In this document: in pieces, positions 9,661 through 22,198 of the stretch
Layout: each line of letters opens with the position of its first letter
Numbering within the stretch: the first letter of the stretch is position 1
Source: a virus
Strand: one strand, 5' to 3'
IMG/VR virus record: IMGVR_UViG_3300008267_000279
Coordinates: 1 to 27,322 of that record
Length of the DNA stretch: 27,322 nucleotides
Notes under the pieces: generated by a model
Databases searched by the model: none
The model's input: the letters and a program-made list of their open reading frames with translations, nothing else
Told to the model about the DNA's origin: nothing
Program-made: the position numbers and the translations under genes

Positions 9661-11992
9661 CTTCAATTTTTTTATCGTTATCATTGCTAATCATAAACCA
9701 TTGCAAACCATTTGAATTACCACTTAAATAGTTTAATCCTTTATATGTAGCATATTTTTGAATCCAAATATTAAAACGTTTACGAGTTAAGAACTTTTGA
9801 AAATCTTTATACTCATTAACAAAAGCATTGAAGTAAAAAGATTTATCGTTTCTTTCATCAATTGGCATATTATTAATATCTGAAATCCATTCGTAAAACT
9901 CCATTGAAGTTTCAGCAATAAATTTACGCAACTTAATATTTTTAGCGTTTTGATGTACTAAACCTGATTTCAAGTATTTCTGTAAACACTCAATCATATA
10001 ATTATCAAACCTTTGAAACTCTGAAGTGTCCCACTCATCAAATAATTGTTTTCCAAACTCATCATCTGGAGTTAAATTTTTTCCGTAATATTGTGCAATT
10101 TCTATTTCGTGTCTACGTCTGTTATGTGAATTACCTTCTCCTTTAATAGCATAATTTGTTGACATTAATATCTTTGGAGAATCGTGAACGTTTAATTTAA
10201 TAGCGTCTTTATTTTTACGCTCCAAAGTCATACCCTCAGTTACAAGAGAAAACTTATCCTCAAAATCAAAGTTCTTTTTAACATCATCAAATACTAATAT
10301 CTTTGTATCTAAAGAAACGGTTTGATAAGCAAATGATTTTTTACTATCAAATTGTTTGCCATCTATAATAGCGGTTTTACGCAATTGACTTAACCCCTGT
10401 ACAAATAATCCTTTTCCTGTTCCCCCTTCTGGGTTATCGCTTATAATCTCATCATTTAAAATAATAGCCTTGTTATTACTTCTATTTTTATAAGTAGATA
10501 TTAAGTAACCAATAACACACTCAATTGCAAAAGGTTCATCAGAAGATATATTATTTATAAAACGTTTATAATCATTTGTATTATCTTCTAAAGTTTTCCA
10601 TTCTCTGTCCAAAATGTGGCTACTCCAAACATAACCATCAACATCAATATAATCTATTAAGTTTACATTATCCTTTGTAACCTCTAAAATACCATTCTTA
10701 AAAGCAATATAGGATTTAAACCTATCATCATTTAACATCATTAAATCAATAGACTCAAGCATAAGTAAAAACTGCTCACTAAATAAATTTTGGTAATTAG
10801 CACAATAGTTCCAAACTTCTAACTCTTTACGTTCCATAAGATAATCAAGAACAAAATCTTTAATCTTTGATACGCTTGTAAGTTCTACCTTATTTGAATT
10901 TATAAATACGAATTGAGGCTTATCACTTTCATTTGGAAAATGTTTTTTAAATCCATTTCTTTCAAGGAATAATTTATATTTTAATGGGTTAACCGATATT
11001 TTGTTTTTATCATTTATAAACCAAAAATCTTCGGCTTCTGATACTTCCTTTATTTCATTATAAACATCCTCCTCAATGTTGTACTTTTCAATTACTTCCT
11101 TTTTACCTTTCTTTAAATCGGTTTTAATTTTCTCAATCTGTTGGTAATTCTCAAAATATTTAGAATTAAAAGAACGTCTTTTGTAAGCTGACTTAATTGT
11201 GTTTTTAGCTTCTGATTCTGAAAAATCCCCTATAACTACATTATTAAATATATAACCTAAAGCGGTGGTTTCAGATATTCCATATTCACAAAACGCTCCA
11301 GCAAGGTCAAAAATAAAAGAATTTCTTTCTCCCTCTCTAAAATCCTTTTGCCAATTGAATTTCATTATTTTATCAATAATAGTACTTTCATCATCAATTG
11401 GAATCAATGGTACTTTATCCGATACACTGAAACCCTCATCAATTAAAACAGGCTCATAACATTCAGCATCGTAATTGATATAAATATTTTCATCATAAGA
11501 CTCAAAACAAACCCTGTCTACATTACAATTTGATTTATCAAAGTAATCATAGTTAAATTCATTATTAAAAGCCTTGAAGTATTTTTCGTGTGTTATCTTA
11601 TCTGAATAAGGAATCCTCACTACCCCCTTTATACCTTTTCCACTTGGAGAAATAAACAAAGTAATAAAAGACTTATTCTTTTTTAACGTTTCAAAGTGTT
11701 CAAACATTTCCTTATCAGATGGGTATTTATCAAAATCAACAACCATCATACCAGAATGAGAAATAAGACCATTCTTATTGCGTTCTTTAAACTCGCCACT
11801 AAAAACAATACATGGTAAATTCTGTTTTAGTTTATCGGCTTCTTCTTTAGACTTTGCATTTCTAACTTGCTCAACAAGTTCTTTGCTTTTCCCTGTTCTA
11901 ATACGCTCTAAAGATTTCCAAAGTGGAATAATGTAAGGAACGTCTTTTGATTTAAGTAAGTTCTTAAATACTGAAATATTATTATCTTTCAT
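9641..11992 (-). CDS. Primase-helicase fusion (VirE N-terminal/BT4734-like plus SF3-like ATPase)
   Basis: A 783-aa replication protein. The N-terminal domain has 'SGMMVVDFDKY' (80-90), 'FISPSGKGIKGVVRI' (113-127) and 'DRVCFESYDENI' (159-170), the acidic DFD and P-S-G-x-G-x-K motifs of the BT4734-like/VirE-N archaeo-eukaryotic primase group. A PriCT-like helical region around 205-275 follows. The C-terminal D5/SF3-like ATPase has Walker A GGTGKG (523-528), Walker B 'KILVFDDV' (564-571), sensor 'ILMSTNY' (608-614) and an Arg-rich 'HNRRRHEIEIA'. It should prime and unwind phage DNA. Expression is probably controlled by the structured leader at 12006-12081, which ends 13 nt before the ATG. Confidence 0.85.
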   Translation of the reverse strand: MKDNNISVFKNLLKSKDVPYIIPLWKSLERIRTGKSKELVEQVRNAKSKEEADKLKQNLPCIVFSGEFKERNKNGLISHSGMMVVDFDKYPSDKEMFEHFETLKKNKSFITLFISPSGKGIKGVVRIPYSDKITHEKYFKAFNNEFNYDYFDKSNCNVDRVCFESYDENIYINYDAECYEPVLIDEGFSVSDKVPLIPIDDESTIIDKIMKFNWQKDFREGERNSFIFDLAGAFCEYGISETTALGYIFNNVVIGDFSESEAKNTIKSAYKRRSFNSKYFENYQQIEKIKTDLKKGKKEVIEKYNIEEDVYNEIKEVSEAEDFWFINDKNKISVNPLKYKLFLERNGFKKHFPNESDKPQFVFINSNKVELTSVSKIKDFVLDYLMERKELEVWNYCANYQNLFSEQFLLMLESIDLMMLNDDRFKSYIAFKNGILEVTKDNVNLIDYIDVDGYVWSSHILDREWKTLEDNTNDYKRFINNISSDEPFAIECVIGYLISTYKNRSNNKAIILNDEIISDNPEGGTGKGLFVQGLSQLRKTAIIDGKQFDSKKSFAYQTVSLDTKILVFDDVKKNFDFEDKFSLVTEGMTLERKNKDAIKLNVHDSPKILMSTNYAIKGEGNSHNRRRHEIEIAQYYGKNLTPDDEFGKQLFDEWDTSEFQRFDNYMIECLQKYLKSGLVHQNAKNIKLRKFIAETSMEFYEWISDINNMPIDERNDKSFYFNAFVNEYKDFQKFLTRKRFNIWIQKYATYKGLNYLSGNSNGLQWFMISNDNDKKIEDDGIDF

Positions 11993-12005: not shown

Positions 12006-12081
12006 TAAAAGGGATAAATCCACCAACTCCTACACTGGTTTCATTATCCCTTTTATATAATGTTTTCTAATTGTAGGAGTT
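12006..12081 (-). promoter_or_regulatory. Structured 5' leader of primase mRNA: interleaved stems, possible pseudoknot
   Basis: Two perfect inverted repeats are interleaved. Stem 1 pairs 12072-12081 with 12025-12034 (10 bp). Stem 2 pairs 12044-12055 with 12006-12017 (12 bp). In the minus-strand RNA the order is S1, S2, S1', S2', an H-type pseudoknot topology with linkers of 16, 9 and 7 nt, or two mutually exclusive hairpins. The predicted transcription start (about 12080) falls at the first base of stem 1 and stem 2 ends 13 nt before the ATG at 11992, so the structure fills the whole leader. After stem 2 comes CTTTTTAT, so an attenuator reading is possible as well. Confidence 0.7.
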
Positions 12082-12084
12082 ATA

Positions 12085-12115
12085 CAAAGGTAATTAAATA
12101 ATTTTAATATACAAA
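12085..12115 (-). promoter_or_regulatory. Promoter of the primase operon
   Basis: Minus strand: TTTG (12115-12112), 19 bp, TACCTTTG (12092-12085), an exact fit to the Bacteroidota TTTG-N19-TAnnTTTG promoter. It would start transcription about 88 nt before the primase ATG. Confidence 0.75.
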
Positions 12116-12292
12116 TAAAATAGTAAAAAAAATGTTCACTAAATGTTTTTCTTATTTTATAAGGCTTTAGATAGCAAAAGTCAACAAGTCAACATTTTTT
12201 TTGATTTTTGACCCCCCCCTATCAAAACAAAAATATTTTTCTTAAAGGGTGTATAGGGAACACTTTAAATGTTGACTTATTATAAATAAAAA
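12116..12292. other. Non-coding repeat region, candidate replication origin
   Basis: No ORF in this 177-bp AT-rich stretch between the SSB-like terminator and the primase promoter. It holds aaatgtt three times (12130, 12141, 12267) and inverted once (12191), two tandem aagtcaac copies (12178-12193), a 12-bp inverted repeat (12186-12197 with 12267-12278), a nested ccctat/ataggg pair (12217-12222 with 12253-12258), and a C8 tract (12212-12219) rare in such AT-rich DNA. Iteron-like repeats beside the primase suit an origin or operator. This is inference. Confidence 0.4.
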
Positions 12293-12312
12293 AGCCACCA
12301 TAATAGGTGGCT
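12293..12312 (-). terminator. Intrinsic terminator after SSB-like gene
   Basis: Stem agccacc (12293-12299) with ggtggct (12306-12312), 6-nt loop, followed on the minus strand by a T-run. It starts 7 bp past the stop of the SSB-like gene. Confidence 0.85.
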
Positions 12313-12318
12313 AATTAA

Positions 12319-12996
12319 TTAAAATTCTAAATCATCTTCGGGTTCATCATCTAATTCAAGCATTTCAATTATTGGTTCTGCCTTTGCTAAATAGGTTTTA
12401 AGATACGATTCTAAAGTATTGAAACATTCATCTGCTTGCTCCGCTTCTGTTTCTGAAAGTGAACGTTCAAACTTAAATTCAGGCATTGAGAATTTAACAG
12501 CTCCCTTTTTACCATCTTTTGTAGAATCAACAACTATCCATTCATCAGGAAGTCTTTGTTTTGTTTTTTGCGTGAATAAACCCCACTCTTGAACTGCTGA
12601 ACCTTTTAATTGTAAGTTAGCAAGCGAACCATCTTCTAACATAATGTAAATAGATTTCACATAATGTCCCCCAGCAGATTGAACTTTCTCTTTAATATCT
12701 TTATAAAGTCCTTTTGCAATTTCGTTACCTTTGAAAGGTTTAACAGTCATTATTTCTTTAGATATAAATTTAACCTCATTTGAAAAGATACCGCTTGAAG
12801 TTGCATCGTTCCAACCTTTAATTGCGTGGAGTTCATCAAGAACTAAGAATTTAAAAGGTAAAGGTACTTGAATGTTTTTTTGTTCTTCTTTGTCGTAGTA
12901 AGAGAAACATTTGTCGCTTGATTTCCAGTCAAAGAATTTAGTAGCTGGATTTGTTTGCGGTTGATTGAACGCTTGGCGTCTGTTTGAAGTACTCAT
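12319..12996 (-). CDS. Probable single-stranded DNA-binding protein
   Basis: A 225-aa soluble protein whose last residues are strongly acidic ('LELDDEPEDDLEF'), the C-terminal tail typical of SSB, gp2.5 and gp32-type proteins. The core has 'FKFLVLDELHAIKGWNDATS' and 'MTVKPFKGNEIAKGLYKDIK', a sequence I recognise from Flavobacteriia phages beside the primase, where it is usually unnamed. Its place directly before the replication genes and with its own terminator fits an abundant ssDNA-binding role. No canonical OB-fold signature can be assigned by eye. Its leader has a hairpin and a TATATTTG promoter element. Confidence 0.55.
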   Translation of the reverse strand: MSTSNRRQAFNQPQTNPATKFFDWKSSDKCFSYYDKEEQKNIQVPLPFKFLVLDELHAIKGWNDATSSGIFSNEVKFISKEIMTVKPFKGNEIAKGLYKDIKEKVQSAGGHYVKSIYIMLEDGSLANLQLKGSAVQEWGLFTQKTKQRLPDEWIVVDSTKDGKKGAVKFSMPEFKFERSLSETEAEQADECFNTLESYLKTYLAKAEPIIEMLELDDEPEDDLEF

Positions 12997-13123: not shown

Positions 13124-13567
13124 TTAATATTTAATAGTTAGTGAATCTGCTGAATATTTTACGGAAACTTTCGGAACTTCTACACCATCACTATCATAAA
13201 AAACCTCATCTGATTTTAAAGCAAGTTTTAACAGTTCTTCACGCTGTTGAAGTTTGTGTTTTAGTTGTTGCCACATTTCATCATCTTGAAATTGTATCAT
13301 CTTACGCCCTGAAATCGGACTAATTTCTACACCAAAGGCAACGTGTTTTTCTTTAGGTAAATGACTTTTAATTTCGTCTTTGATAATTTCTAAGGCGTTT
13401 GACATTCTAACCGCTTGCGTAAATGCTTCGTACTTATCAACTTCTCCAGCTTCAATAAGTTTGTTTGCAAATTGTTTAGCTGAAAACTCAACTTCTTTTT
13501 TGTTTGGCAAAAAGTTTGATGTTTGAATTTCTTGTTCACGCATCAACTCAAAAAGGTGTTTACTCAT
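13124..13567 (-). CDS. Hypothetical replication-region protein, 147 aa
   Basis: Charged, mostly helical protein. 'SAKQFANKLIEAGEVDKYEA' and 'FTQAVRMSNALEIIKDEIKS' are followed by a long helix rich in Gln/Glu/Lys ('MWQQLKHKLQQREELLKLAL') and a C-terminal beta region ending 'VSVKYSADSLTIKY'. I recall similar proteins next to SSB- and recombination-type genes in Bacteroidota phages, with no known function. It has its own promoter at 13588-13619 and is followed by the promoter of the SSB-like gene. Confidence 0.55.
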   Translation of the reverse strand: MSKHLFELMREQEIQTSNFLPNKKEVEFSAKQFANKLIEAGEVDKYEAFTQAVRMSNALEIIKDEIKSHLPKEKHVAFGVEISPISGRKMIQFQDDEMWQQLKHKLQQREELLKLALKSDEVFYDSDGVEVPKVSVKYSADSLTIKY

Positions 13568-13623: not shown

Positions 13624-14295
13624 TTACTCGAATAGTTCAATTTGCTTATCGTTTTTTTTCTTTATAATTCCTAAAGCTGTTTGAAAAATTGTTTTACCTG
13701 CTTGATAGTCTACAAGATTTCTTGCTATTTTTAAAACTCTTTGTTTCCCTTTATACTTTCTAAAATCATAATCGTGAAAATCACATAAATCCTGCATTCT
13801 TGAAGCTTGTACTAAAGCTGTATCGTTTCTGTCTGATACATTATTTGGAATTATAAAATTACTCCAATACAAATGCCTTTCTCTTTTTGAAGGATTAAAC
13901 ATTGGTTCATAATAAGGATTTACGTTTTCAACAACCCACTTACCAAAAAAATGATGTTGCAAAAAAATAATTTCTTCATAAAGCTTCATATCTGGATAAC
14001 AAGGCTGTAAACCATTTTTACCAAAACCCCAATAACGTGCTTTGCTATGACTTGGGCAAGGTGGACTTGACCATATGAAATCAAAGTTTTTATAGTTATC
14101 AAGTAAGTACTGATGTGCATCTGCTACAATTACTTTATCGTTTGGAAAACGCTCTTGATATAATTTAGCTAATTCTTCATCCAATTCCACAGCCGTTACT
14201 TCAATTTCAATTCCTTTTTCTTTCGCTACTTCATCCCATTTGTATCGATTTCCACCTAAGCAAGCGTATAGATTAAGTATTTTGTATTTTCCCAT
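13624..14295 (-). CDS. C5 cytosine-specific DNA methyltransferase
   Basis: A 223-aa protein starting at the Met codon at 14295, three codons after the first possible Met. Motif I is 'NLYACLGGN' (8-16, SAM binding), motif IV 'WSSPPCPSHS' with catalytic Cys80, motif VI 'VVENV' with Glu123. The C-terminal part after 'HLYWSNF' is short, so the target-recognition domain is small, as in compact phage methyltransferases. It probably modifies phage DNA to escape host restriction. No matching restriction enzyme is nearby, so it is an orphan enzyme. It overlaps the upstream 46-aa gene by 23 bp. Confidence 0.85.
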   Translation of the reverse strand: MGKYKILNLYACLGGNRYKWDEVAKEKGIEIEVTAVELDEELAKLYQERFPNDKVIVADAHQYLLDNYKNFDFIWSSPPCPSHSKARYWGFGKNGLQPCYPDMKLYEEIIFLQHHFFGKWVVENVNPYYEPMFNPSKRERHLYWSNFIIPNNVSDRNDTALVQASRMQDLCDFHDYDFRKYKGKQRVLKIARNLVDYQAGKTIFQTALGIIKKKNDKQIELFE

Positions 14296-14413
14296 ATTTC
14301 GCAAATATTATTTTGTGTTTTATTCTGTTTGCTCTTTCACAATTCACGCCACGTTTATAGTAAAAGTCTATAACTCGATTTATGCGTTGTAAGGCTGTAA
14401 GTTTTGTTTTCAT
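14273..14413 (-). CDS. Hypothetical basic protein, 46 aa
   Basis: Start chosen at ATG 14413, which overlaps the stop of the upstream 32-aa gene (ATGA). The longer in-frame start at 14461 would cover half of that gene. The product 'MKTKLTALQRINRVIDFYYK' 'RGVNCERANRIKHKII...' is strongly basic and helical, possibly nucleic-acid binding. It runs 23 bp into the methyltransferase gene. Function unknown. Confidence 0.55.
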   Translation of the reverse strand: MKTKLTALQRINRVIDFYYKRGVNCERANRIKHKIIFAKYGKIQNT

Positions 14414-21795: not shown

Positions 21796-21942
21796 ATGGA
21801 AGCAGAAGATTTAGTAGGATTATTACAAGCTTATTTGCTTGAAAACAACAGATTAAAAGATTTTTTAGATTATTGTGAAGAATCAGGGAATGATAAAGAA
21901 GAAGTTTCTGATTTAATAGATAAAATTGTTTACGGAGAATAA
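21796..21942 (+). CDS. Hypothetical acidic protein, 48 aa
   Basis: ATG at 21796 to TAA at 21940-21942, served by its own consensus promoter and followed by a terminator, so it forms a monocistronic unit. The product 'MEAEDLVGLLQAYLLENNRL' 'KDFLDYCEESGNDKEEVSDL' is acidic and all-helical. Its charge and size are those of phage inhibitor-type mini-proteins (DNA mimic or enzyme inhibitor), but no target can be named. Confidence 0.7.
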   Translation: MEAEDLVGLLQAYLLENNRLKDFLDYCEESGNDKEEVSDLIDKIVYGE

Positions 21943-21960
21943 AGAGTTAAACATTAAAAA

Positions 21961-21984
21961 ACCGCTATCGTAATTGGTAGCGGT
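21961..21984. terminator. Bidirectional terminator between convergent genes
   Basis: accgcta (21961-21967) pairs with tagcggt (21978-21984), flanked by A-run on the left and T-run on the right so it works in both directions. The stop codon of the minus-strand 77-aa gene (21965-21967) lies inside the stem. Confidence 0.85.
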
Positions 21985-22198
21985 TTTTGATTTGTATTAA
22001 CTTTATCTCATTTATGCAATCTCGAATAATTATGCAGTTTTCGTAATCTTCTATTTCTTCAAATACTTTTAAGAAGTTTTGCAAATCTTCAATCGGTTGA
22101 TATAAACACCAATATTCAAACTCTAAATCAGTTTTAAAAAGACTTCTAATGTAAATCGGGTTTATTAATTCCTCGTATGCTTTAGATAAGTCTTTCAT
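21965..22198 (-). CDS. Hypothetical acidic protein, 77 aa
   Basis: Acidic helical protein 'MKDLSKAYEELINPIYIRSL' then 'YQPIEDLQNFLKVFEEIEDY' and 'CIIIRDCINEIKLIQ'. The 'E-x-x-E-D-Y-E-x-C-I-I-I-R-D' segment resembles the UVR motif of UvrB/UvrC-type proteins (paired helices), which could mediate protein contacts. Last gene of the lysis block, 9 bp after the amidase. Its final codons form the transcription terminator. Confidence 0.55.
   Translation of the reverse strand: MKDLSKAYEELINPIYIRSLFKTDLEFEYWCLYQPIEDLQNFLKVFEEIEDYENCIIIRDCINEIKLIQIKNRYQLR

Follow-up and report, generated by a model that had tools for sequence, protein, structure and literature searches.

Replication genes of pT181/pIP501-type plasmids are subject to attenuation at an intrinsic terminator in the leader, the loop partner of which is a separate antisense RNA; the ColE1 RNA I–RNA II kissing complex, also intermolecular, controls the replication primer. 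Structured leaders are known from phages as well. In T4, T2 and RB69 a pseudoknot 67 nt upstream of the start of gene 32 is bound by the product of that gene and serves that one gene (PMC3014915, PMC535899); a 2010 review considered it possibly the only viral example in translational autoregulation (PMC3014915). The leaders of T4-type homing endonuclease genes (I-TevI, mobE, segB) carry simple hairpins that hide the Shine-Dalgarno site in read-through transcripts and contain a late promoter inside the structure (PMC2988022). Finally, the STAXI motif, with its tandem repeats and UUCG loops, forms a pseudoknot near DNA-handling genes (PMC2864571).

Here we describe an RNA element in the leader of a primase-helicase gene, encoded in a 27,322-nt stretch of DNA from a flavobacterial virus (henceforth the window; IMG/VR virus record IMGVR_UViG_3300008267_000279). 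Comparative analysis has placed this leader, as one copy among many, in a large family of promoter-proximal RNAs from the 5′ leaders of flavobacterial phage genes. The family is previously undescribed: no account of such an element was found in the papers searched, Rfam 15 at its gathering score matched neither the window element nor the further copies at eight loci, and a permissive Rfam threshold gave no match over the two copies of one cultured phage. A direct nucleotide search of phage records with the window leader returned only chance matches in unrelated phages.

Architecture of the primase-helicase leader

The leader occupies 12081-12006 of the minus strand and contains two helices, P1 (10 bp) and P2 (12 bp), whose strands follow one another in the order S1-S2-S1′-S2′. 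An earlier note on this DNA had proposed two such interleaved stems, and both are present, at 12081-12072/12034-12025 and 12055-12044/12017-12006. The features of the locus are as follows.

12293-12312 (−): terminator-like hairpin 3′ of the upstream gene (12319-12996)
12085-12115 (−): Bacteroidota-type promoter, TTTG (12115-12112), N19 and TACCTTTG (12092-12085), an exact fit to the −33/−7 form in a pattern scan
12072-12081 (−): P1 5′ strand (S1), AACTCCTACA, pairing with TGTAGGAGTT at 12034-12025; compensated changes in relatives
12056-12071 (−): linker L1, A/U-rich, carrying the loosely conserved ACATTATAT
12044-12055 (−): P2 5′ strand (S2), TAAAAGGGATAA; G-C to C-G compensations in relatives
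12036-12039 (−): P3 5′ strand, ACCA, pairing with TGGT at 12025-12022
12025-12034 (−): P1 3′ strand (S1′), TGTAGGAGTT, occupying the loop closed by P3
12022-12025 (−): P3 3′ strand, TGGT; 12025 is also in the last possible P1 pair
12006-12017 (−): P2 3′ strand (S2′), TTATCCCTTTTA, pairing with TAAAAGGGATAA
11993-12010 (−): U-rich tract, TTTTAACTTTTTATAAAT, running into the start codon
9641-11992 (−): primase-helicase gene led by the element (BT4734-like_N, PriCT_1, DUF5906; PHROG 28855)

The third helix, P3, which encloses S1′, is an addition to the earlier description. The distance from the end of stem 2 to the ATG at 11992 is 13 nt, as had been claimed. The best two-stem pseudoknot energy of the leader (−36.2 kcal/mol) was matched by none of 400 dinucleotide shuffles, and by this energy the leader, on either strand, was the top scorer among all 128-nt windows. 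A second candidate in the window, at 21914-21998 (+), resembles an ordinary terminator.

The −7 box of F. psychrophilum promoters spans −12 to −5 (PMC9723704), which places the predicted transcript start at ~12080. The proposal of a promoter-started leader thus holds as regards the promoter, with its exact consensus fit, but the start falls on the second rather than the first base of stem 1. The predicted leader is ~88 nt long; the median in F. psychrophilum is 24 nt (PMC9723704). Given the terminator-like hairpin that follows the upstream gene (12312-12293), the leader opens a new transcription unit.

Two further features were observed in the region upstream. One is a run of 7-10 G (in primase sense) at 12208-12220, in the intergenic region preceding the primase, with similar runs in L017, L020 and L024-L037. 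The other, seen upstream of the promoter for the primases of L002-L011 and L017, consists of repeated AACTTCG(T/C)AC words and their reverse complement; these occur in direct and inverted copies and are possible operators or origin iterons.

Relatives, covariation and kissing loops

Eighty relatives of the primase were fetched and their upstream regions compared: the architecture is the same, the stems are different. The earlier note had named, as an outcome that would refute its structure, that relatives keep the sequence and lose the pairing; the opposite was found, with pairing kept while the sequence changes. In a sequence-only alignment of eight leaders, made without structure (A3), P1, P2 and P3 together were 90.9% paired and 13 pairs were changed on both sides, a count equalled by 0/500 shuffles; slid controls were paired at most 47%. 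Compensated changes affect seven of the nine P1 pairs, and P3 also covaries (for example A-U/G-C and A-U/C-G). The same behaviour was seen in a further subfamily, mostly of primase leaders (A4), and in an endonuclease-type set (A5). When 24 copies were aligned by sequence alone (A6), P2 was 100% paired and each of its seven aligned pairs covaried; for P2 and P3 together the paired fraction of cells was 99.2%. The helices show a weak G·U bias (8 G·U versus 2 A·C).

Not everything in the element varies. ACATTATAT in L1 is conserved in both primase-type and endonuclease-type copies, and the internal loop between P2 and P3, usually 4×4 with tandem G·A and A·G (UGAN/NGAN-like), is kept while the stems change. 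This internal-loop motif, seen in L003:2816, L131, L133, L143, L129 and others, is a possible protein-binding or kinked motif.

A search of whole contigs with a structural descriptor, together with a scan for the loop-pair pattern, gave 44 distinct copies in uncultured flavophage contigs after removal of four chance-like matches; the copies are not independent of each other. In one descriptor scan the highest score on shuffled contigs was 35.2, and over 20 real sites scored above 36. A covariance model built with P2 and P3 only, P1 being left out (R1), finds copies beyond its training set, and all of these carry the P1 complementarity that is absent from the model. One such copy, with P1 complementarity, is on a Bacteroidia genome contig, where a small ORF and a Lin1244-type replication gene follow it. 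It was the one match in an R1 search of 395 Bacteroidia genomes in which only a few candidates were scored per genome. The loci examined after a scan of genome contigs with one loop-pair pattern, including three Bacteroidota ones, were chance matches.

The copies share a common layout. TAnnTTTR stands just upstream of P1 in 38/44 (12% at random positions) and an ATG lies 10-21 nt 3′ of P2 in 39/44, mostly at a spacing of 10-17 nt. At +1 to +5 after the outermost G-C pair of P2, T makes up 75-98% over the 44 copies against a background of 23-36% before other genes, although this statistic is biased by the descriptor, which selected for a T-rich tail. In 34 of the 44 the P3 loop has 8 or 10 nt, and P3 loop sizes fit P1 and P2/P3 forming together.

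In many copies S1 is itself surrounded by a small hairpin, P0. In these copies the P0 and P3 loops can pair along almost all of their length, which makes P1 a loop-loop (kissing) helix. In the endonuclease-type copies all four helices covary (A8: P0, P1, P2 and P3 97.7% paired; 13 doubly changed pairs). By this pairing pattern most endonuclease-type copies are predicted intramolecular kissing-loops; the window copy, without P0 inside the predicted transcript, is a predicted H-type pseudoknot. At L017:2137 (+) the kissing-loop sequences are swapped: CGTCCAC is in the first hairpin and GTGGACG in the second.

Led genes, mobility and cultured phages

The earlier note had envisaged control specific to the primase, with an SSB-like protein or the primase itself as ligand. 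This claim was not supported: the led genes are unrelated and include primases, a helicase, HNH/NUMOD4 and GIY-YIG homing endonucleases, a DNA methyltransferase, a PAPS-reductase-like gene and unknown genes. Furthermore, in one clade of related primases (L024-L037) the upstream region is of another kind, the promoter standing immediately before the start codon. The TAnnTTTG box of this clade lies only some 5-8 nt before the primase ATG, suggesting a leaderless mRNA.

Comparison of related contigs has shown the element to be portable, as judged from the insertion seen: it moves with its promoter and gene. In G002 the promoter, leader and an HNH gene have been inserted together into a helicase gene; the insertion is absent from the related G001. 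The site, at about 6500-8900 of L085 (G002) versus 4380-4700 of L082 (G001), is in the coding region of the helicase Walker A motif, and the HNH endonuclease is free-standing. A recoded second 5′ part of the helicase follows the cassette, so that a full-length helicase is kept. A gene of the window, 13124-13567, has a plain short leader and its 46% identical relative in L015 has the element, from which it follows that the element is gained and lost independently of the gene. Elsewhere in the window, the open frame at 13624-14304 (−) matches a C5 DNA methylase model in its first quarter only and may be split or truncated.

Two copies were found in each closely examined cultured Flavobacterium phage (muumi phages). 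Among the virulent Flavobacterium phages of LMO6/LMO9 (PMC7077304), the endonuclease-type leader has matches in 34 records and the leader heading the replication operon in 46. In mumin6-1 one copy, at 11684, precedes the NUMOD4 endonuclease gp034 and the other, at 12722, precedes gp037, which is followed by the helicase gp038 and the VirE protein gp039. Between mumin, hattifnatt and morran, P1 differs by compensated changes only; the three cultured-phage pairings are GTGGAACG/CGTTCCAC, GTGAGACG/CGTCTCAC and GTGAGAAG/CTTCTCAC. No convincing copy was found in Cellulophaga phi17:1, Polaribacter Leef_1 or Flavobacterium FPSV-S1, nor in the first 50 kb each of Flavobacterium elemoE and Maribacter Panino. 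The presence of copies in phages already in laboratory culture makes their function testable.

Possible functions and known systems

From sequence alone we infer that the element controls expression, attenuation included. The reading that we prefer, to which we give about an even chance, is that of a cis-acting attenuator built on a kissing-loop or H-type pseudoknot and carried as a cassette with its promoter. P2/P3 and the U-tract would form an intrinsic terminator. P1 would fold first, once S1′ leaves the polymerase, and would capture the terminator loop; by competing or cooperating with P2 closure it would set the amount of transcript that reaches the gene. Since P2 ends next to the start codon, it may in addition impede the loading of ribosomes in these hosts, which have no Shine-Dalgarno signals. 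The element would thereby keep the expression of stand-alone phage genes low or timed. Several leaders may share a trans-acting factor, of phage or host, as trigger; alternatively, leakiness may simply be set kinetically.

Several observations bear on this proposal. As expected of terminators, a G-C closed stem stands directly 5′ of the U-tract in the copies. The promoter lies inside the unit, 85-90 nt upstream of the terminator-like P2, so that its transcripts have to run through P2, as in an attenuator. P1 is the dominant predicted fold of the nascent RNA in most copies as long as S2′ has not been synthesized. A classical antiterminator was not found, there being no conserved alternative partner for the P2 5′ strand (mean nascent pairing 0.28), and any regulation must therefore act by loop capture, not by a classical competing helix. 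This bears on the earlier suggestion of an attenuator made of mutually exclusive hairpins. Its terminator-like stem 2 stands, but the missing partner and loop sizes that suit joint formation of P1 and P2/P3 argue against mutual exclusion; kinetic competition between P1 and P2/P3 is possible. Copies also occur inside operons, where downstream genes are presumably needed; P2 is thus not a strong unconditional terminator, and any termination would be leaky or conditional. In the window copy the U-tract is interrupted, as in some other copies, and P2/P3 has an internal loop, so that termination may be weak.

The tight spacing between P2 and the ATG is fitted equally well by translational control. 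Because P2 is close to the ATG in hosts without Shine-Dalgarno signals (PMC6847099), the main rival is a translational gate: P2, in the 30S landing zone 10-21 nt before the ATG, would hold initiation low until opened, transcription would not be stopped, and the U-run would be an unstructured landing stretch. F. johnsoniae has no Shine-Dalgarno signals and structure at −20 to +20 lowers initiation there (PMC6847099); T4 endonucleases are gated by leader structure (PMC2988022); and A at −3 is found in 41% of led genes versus 61% of other genes. However, the U-run directly follows a G-C closed stem, the arrangement of intrinsic terminators, and differs from the A-rich context that these hosts favour, and a gate alone leaves the promoter-proximal kissing helix unexplained. 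We consider this reading rather doubtful.

Structure begins within a few nt of the predicted start (PMC9723704), and led genes are unrelated, as would be expected of a general function; both are consistent with a knot at +1 that blocks ribonucleases and stabilizes the mRNAs of stand-alone genes with no switching. Such a protector would have no need of a U-tract or of a constant spacing to the ATG, and other genes in these phages, as well as orthologues (window 13124-13567 versus L015), lack the element, making this explanation improbable.

With a promoter and a terminator-like hairpin bracketing it, the element could also be a small RNA gene, most transcripts ending at the U-tract to give an RNA of ~85-90 nt that acts in trans, with the downstream gene expressed by read-through. 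Copies in one contig (L131, L133) do share the loop AGTGGACG, so pairing between these leaders is conceivable; in other genomes, however, the copies have different loop sequences, and the close, recurrent placement of the ATG counts against this reading, which we hold to be quite improbable.

An autogenous operator specific to primase or SSB, of the gene 32 kind, would account for a leader pseudoknot before a replication gene, and in the cultured phage morran9-1 an annotated SSB gene is directly upstream. In the window, however, the upstream gene has no SSB domain match, the stems change so freely that no conserved primary binding site is seen, and the variety of led genes, together with the primase clade that lacks the element, makes autocontrol by primase or SSB very unlikely.

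Other candidates were set aside: an HDV-like ribozyme, whose topology has a hairpin between S2 and S1′, on topology, there being no such hairpin and P3 enclosing S1′ instead; a small-molecule riboswitch, disfavoured because hardly any stem position is invariant and loose conservation is confined to L1 and the GA-rich internal loop; and a DNA operator or single-stranded DNA structure, disfavoured by the placement of promoter and ATG.

The significance of the element lies in the recurrence of one covarying leader architecture before dozens of phage genes that are unrelated to each other; cultured virulent phages of Flavobacterium LMO6/LMO9 have two copies per genome. Since Shine-Dalgarno control is lacking in Bacteroidota, the timing of phage expression in them is largely an open question, for which the element offers a concrete, testable device and possibly a shared regulon. 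The freedom with which its stems vary would also make it useful as an orthogonal part. More tentatively, and with well under even confidence, the preferred attenuator could represent a new class of regulatory RNA: an intramolecular kissing-loop set on an intrinsic terminator, a portable expression-control cassette of mobile endonuclease genes and replication operons in flavobacterial phages, read by one common phage or host factor that would join many unrelated genes into one RNA-controlled regulon.

How does the element compare with the systems described at the outset? It shares with the STAXI motif a pseudoknot near DNA-handling genes, but has neither tandem repeats nor UUCG loops and no Rfam match. 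Like the T4 endonuclease hairpins, it precedes phage homing endonuclease genes as an RNA structure and would limit their expression; in contrast to them, its TAnnTTTG promoter precedes the whole structure (38/44 copies), Shine-Dalgarno signals are absent, and non-endonuclease genes are also served. Like the gene 32 leader, it is a pseudoknot that precedes a DNA replication gene in a phage mRNA. However, the window element leads a primase and not the gene of the single-stranded DNA-binding protein itself, stands at the 5′ end of the transcript, ends beside the ATG and has a third helix and a U-tract; its family precedes many unrelated genes, is often a kissing-loop and shows no homology. The gene 32 leader and the T4 endonuclease hairpins are thus functional analogues at most, not relatives. 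As in the ColE1 RNA I–RNA II complex, two hairpin loops of about 7-8 nt pair along nearly their whole length, but intramolecularly and next to a start codon; and as in the pT181/pIP501 attenuators, an intrinsic terminator in the leader would be influenced by loop-loop contacts, with the difference that here both loops reside in one molecule.
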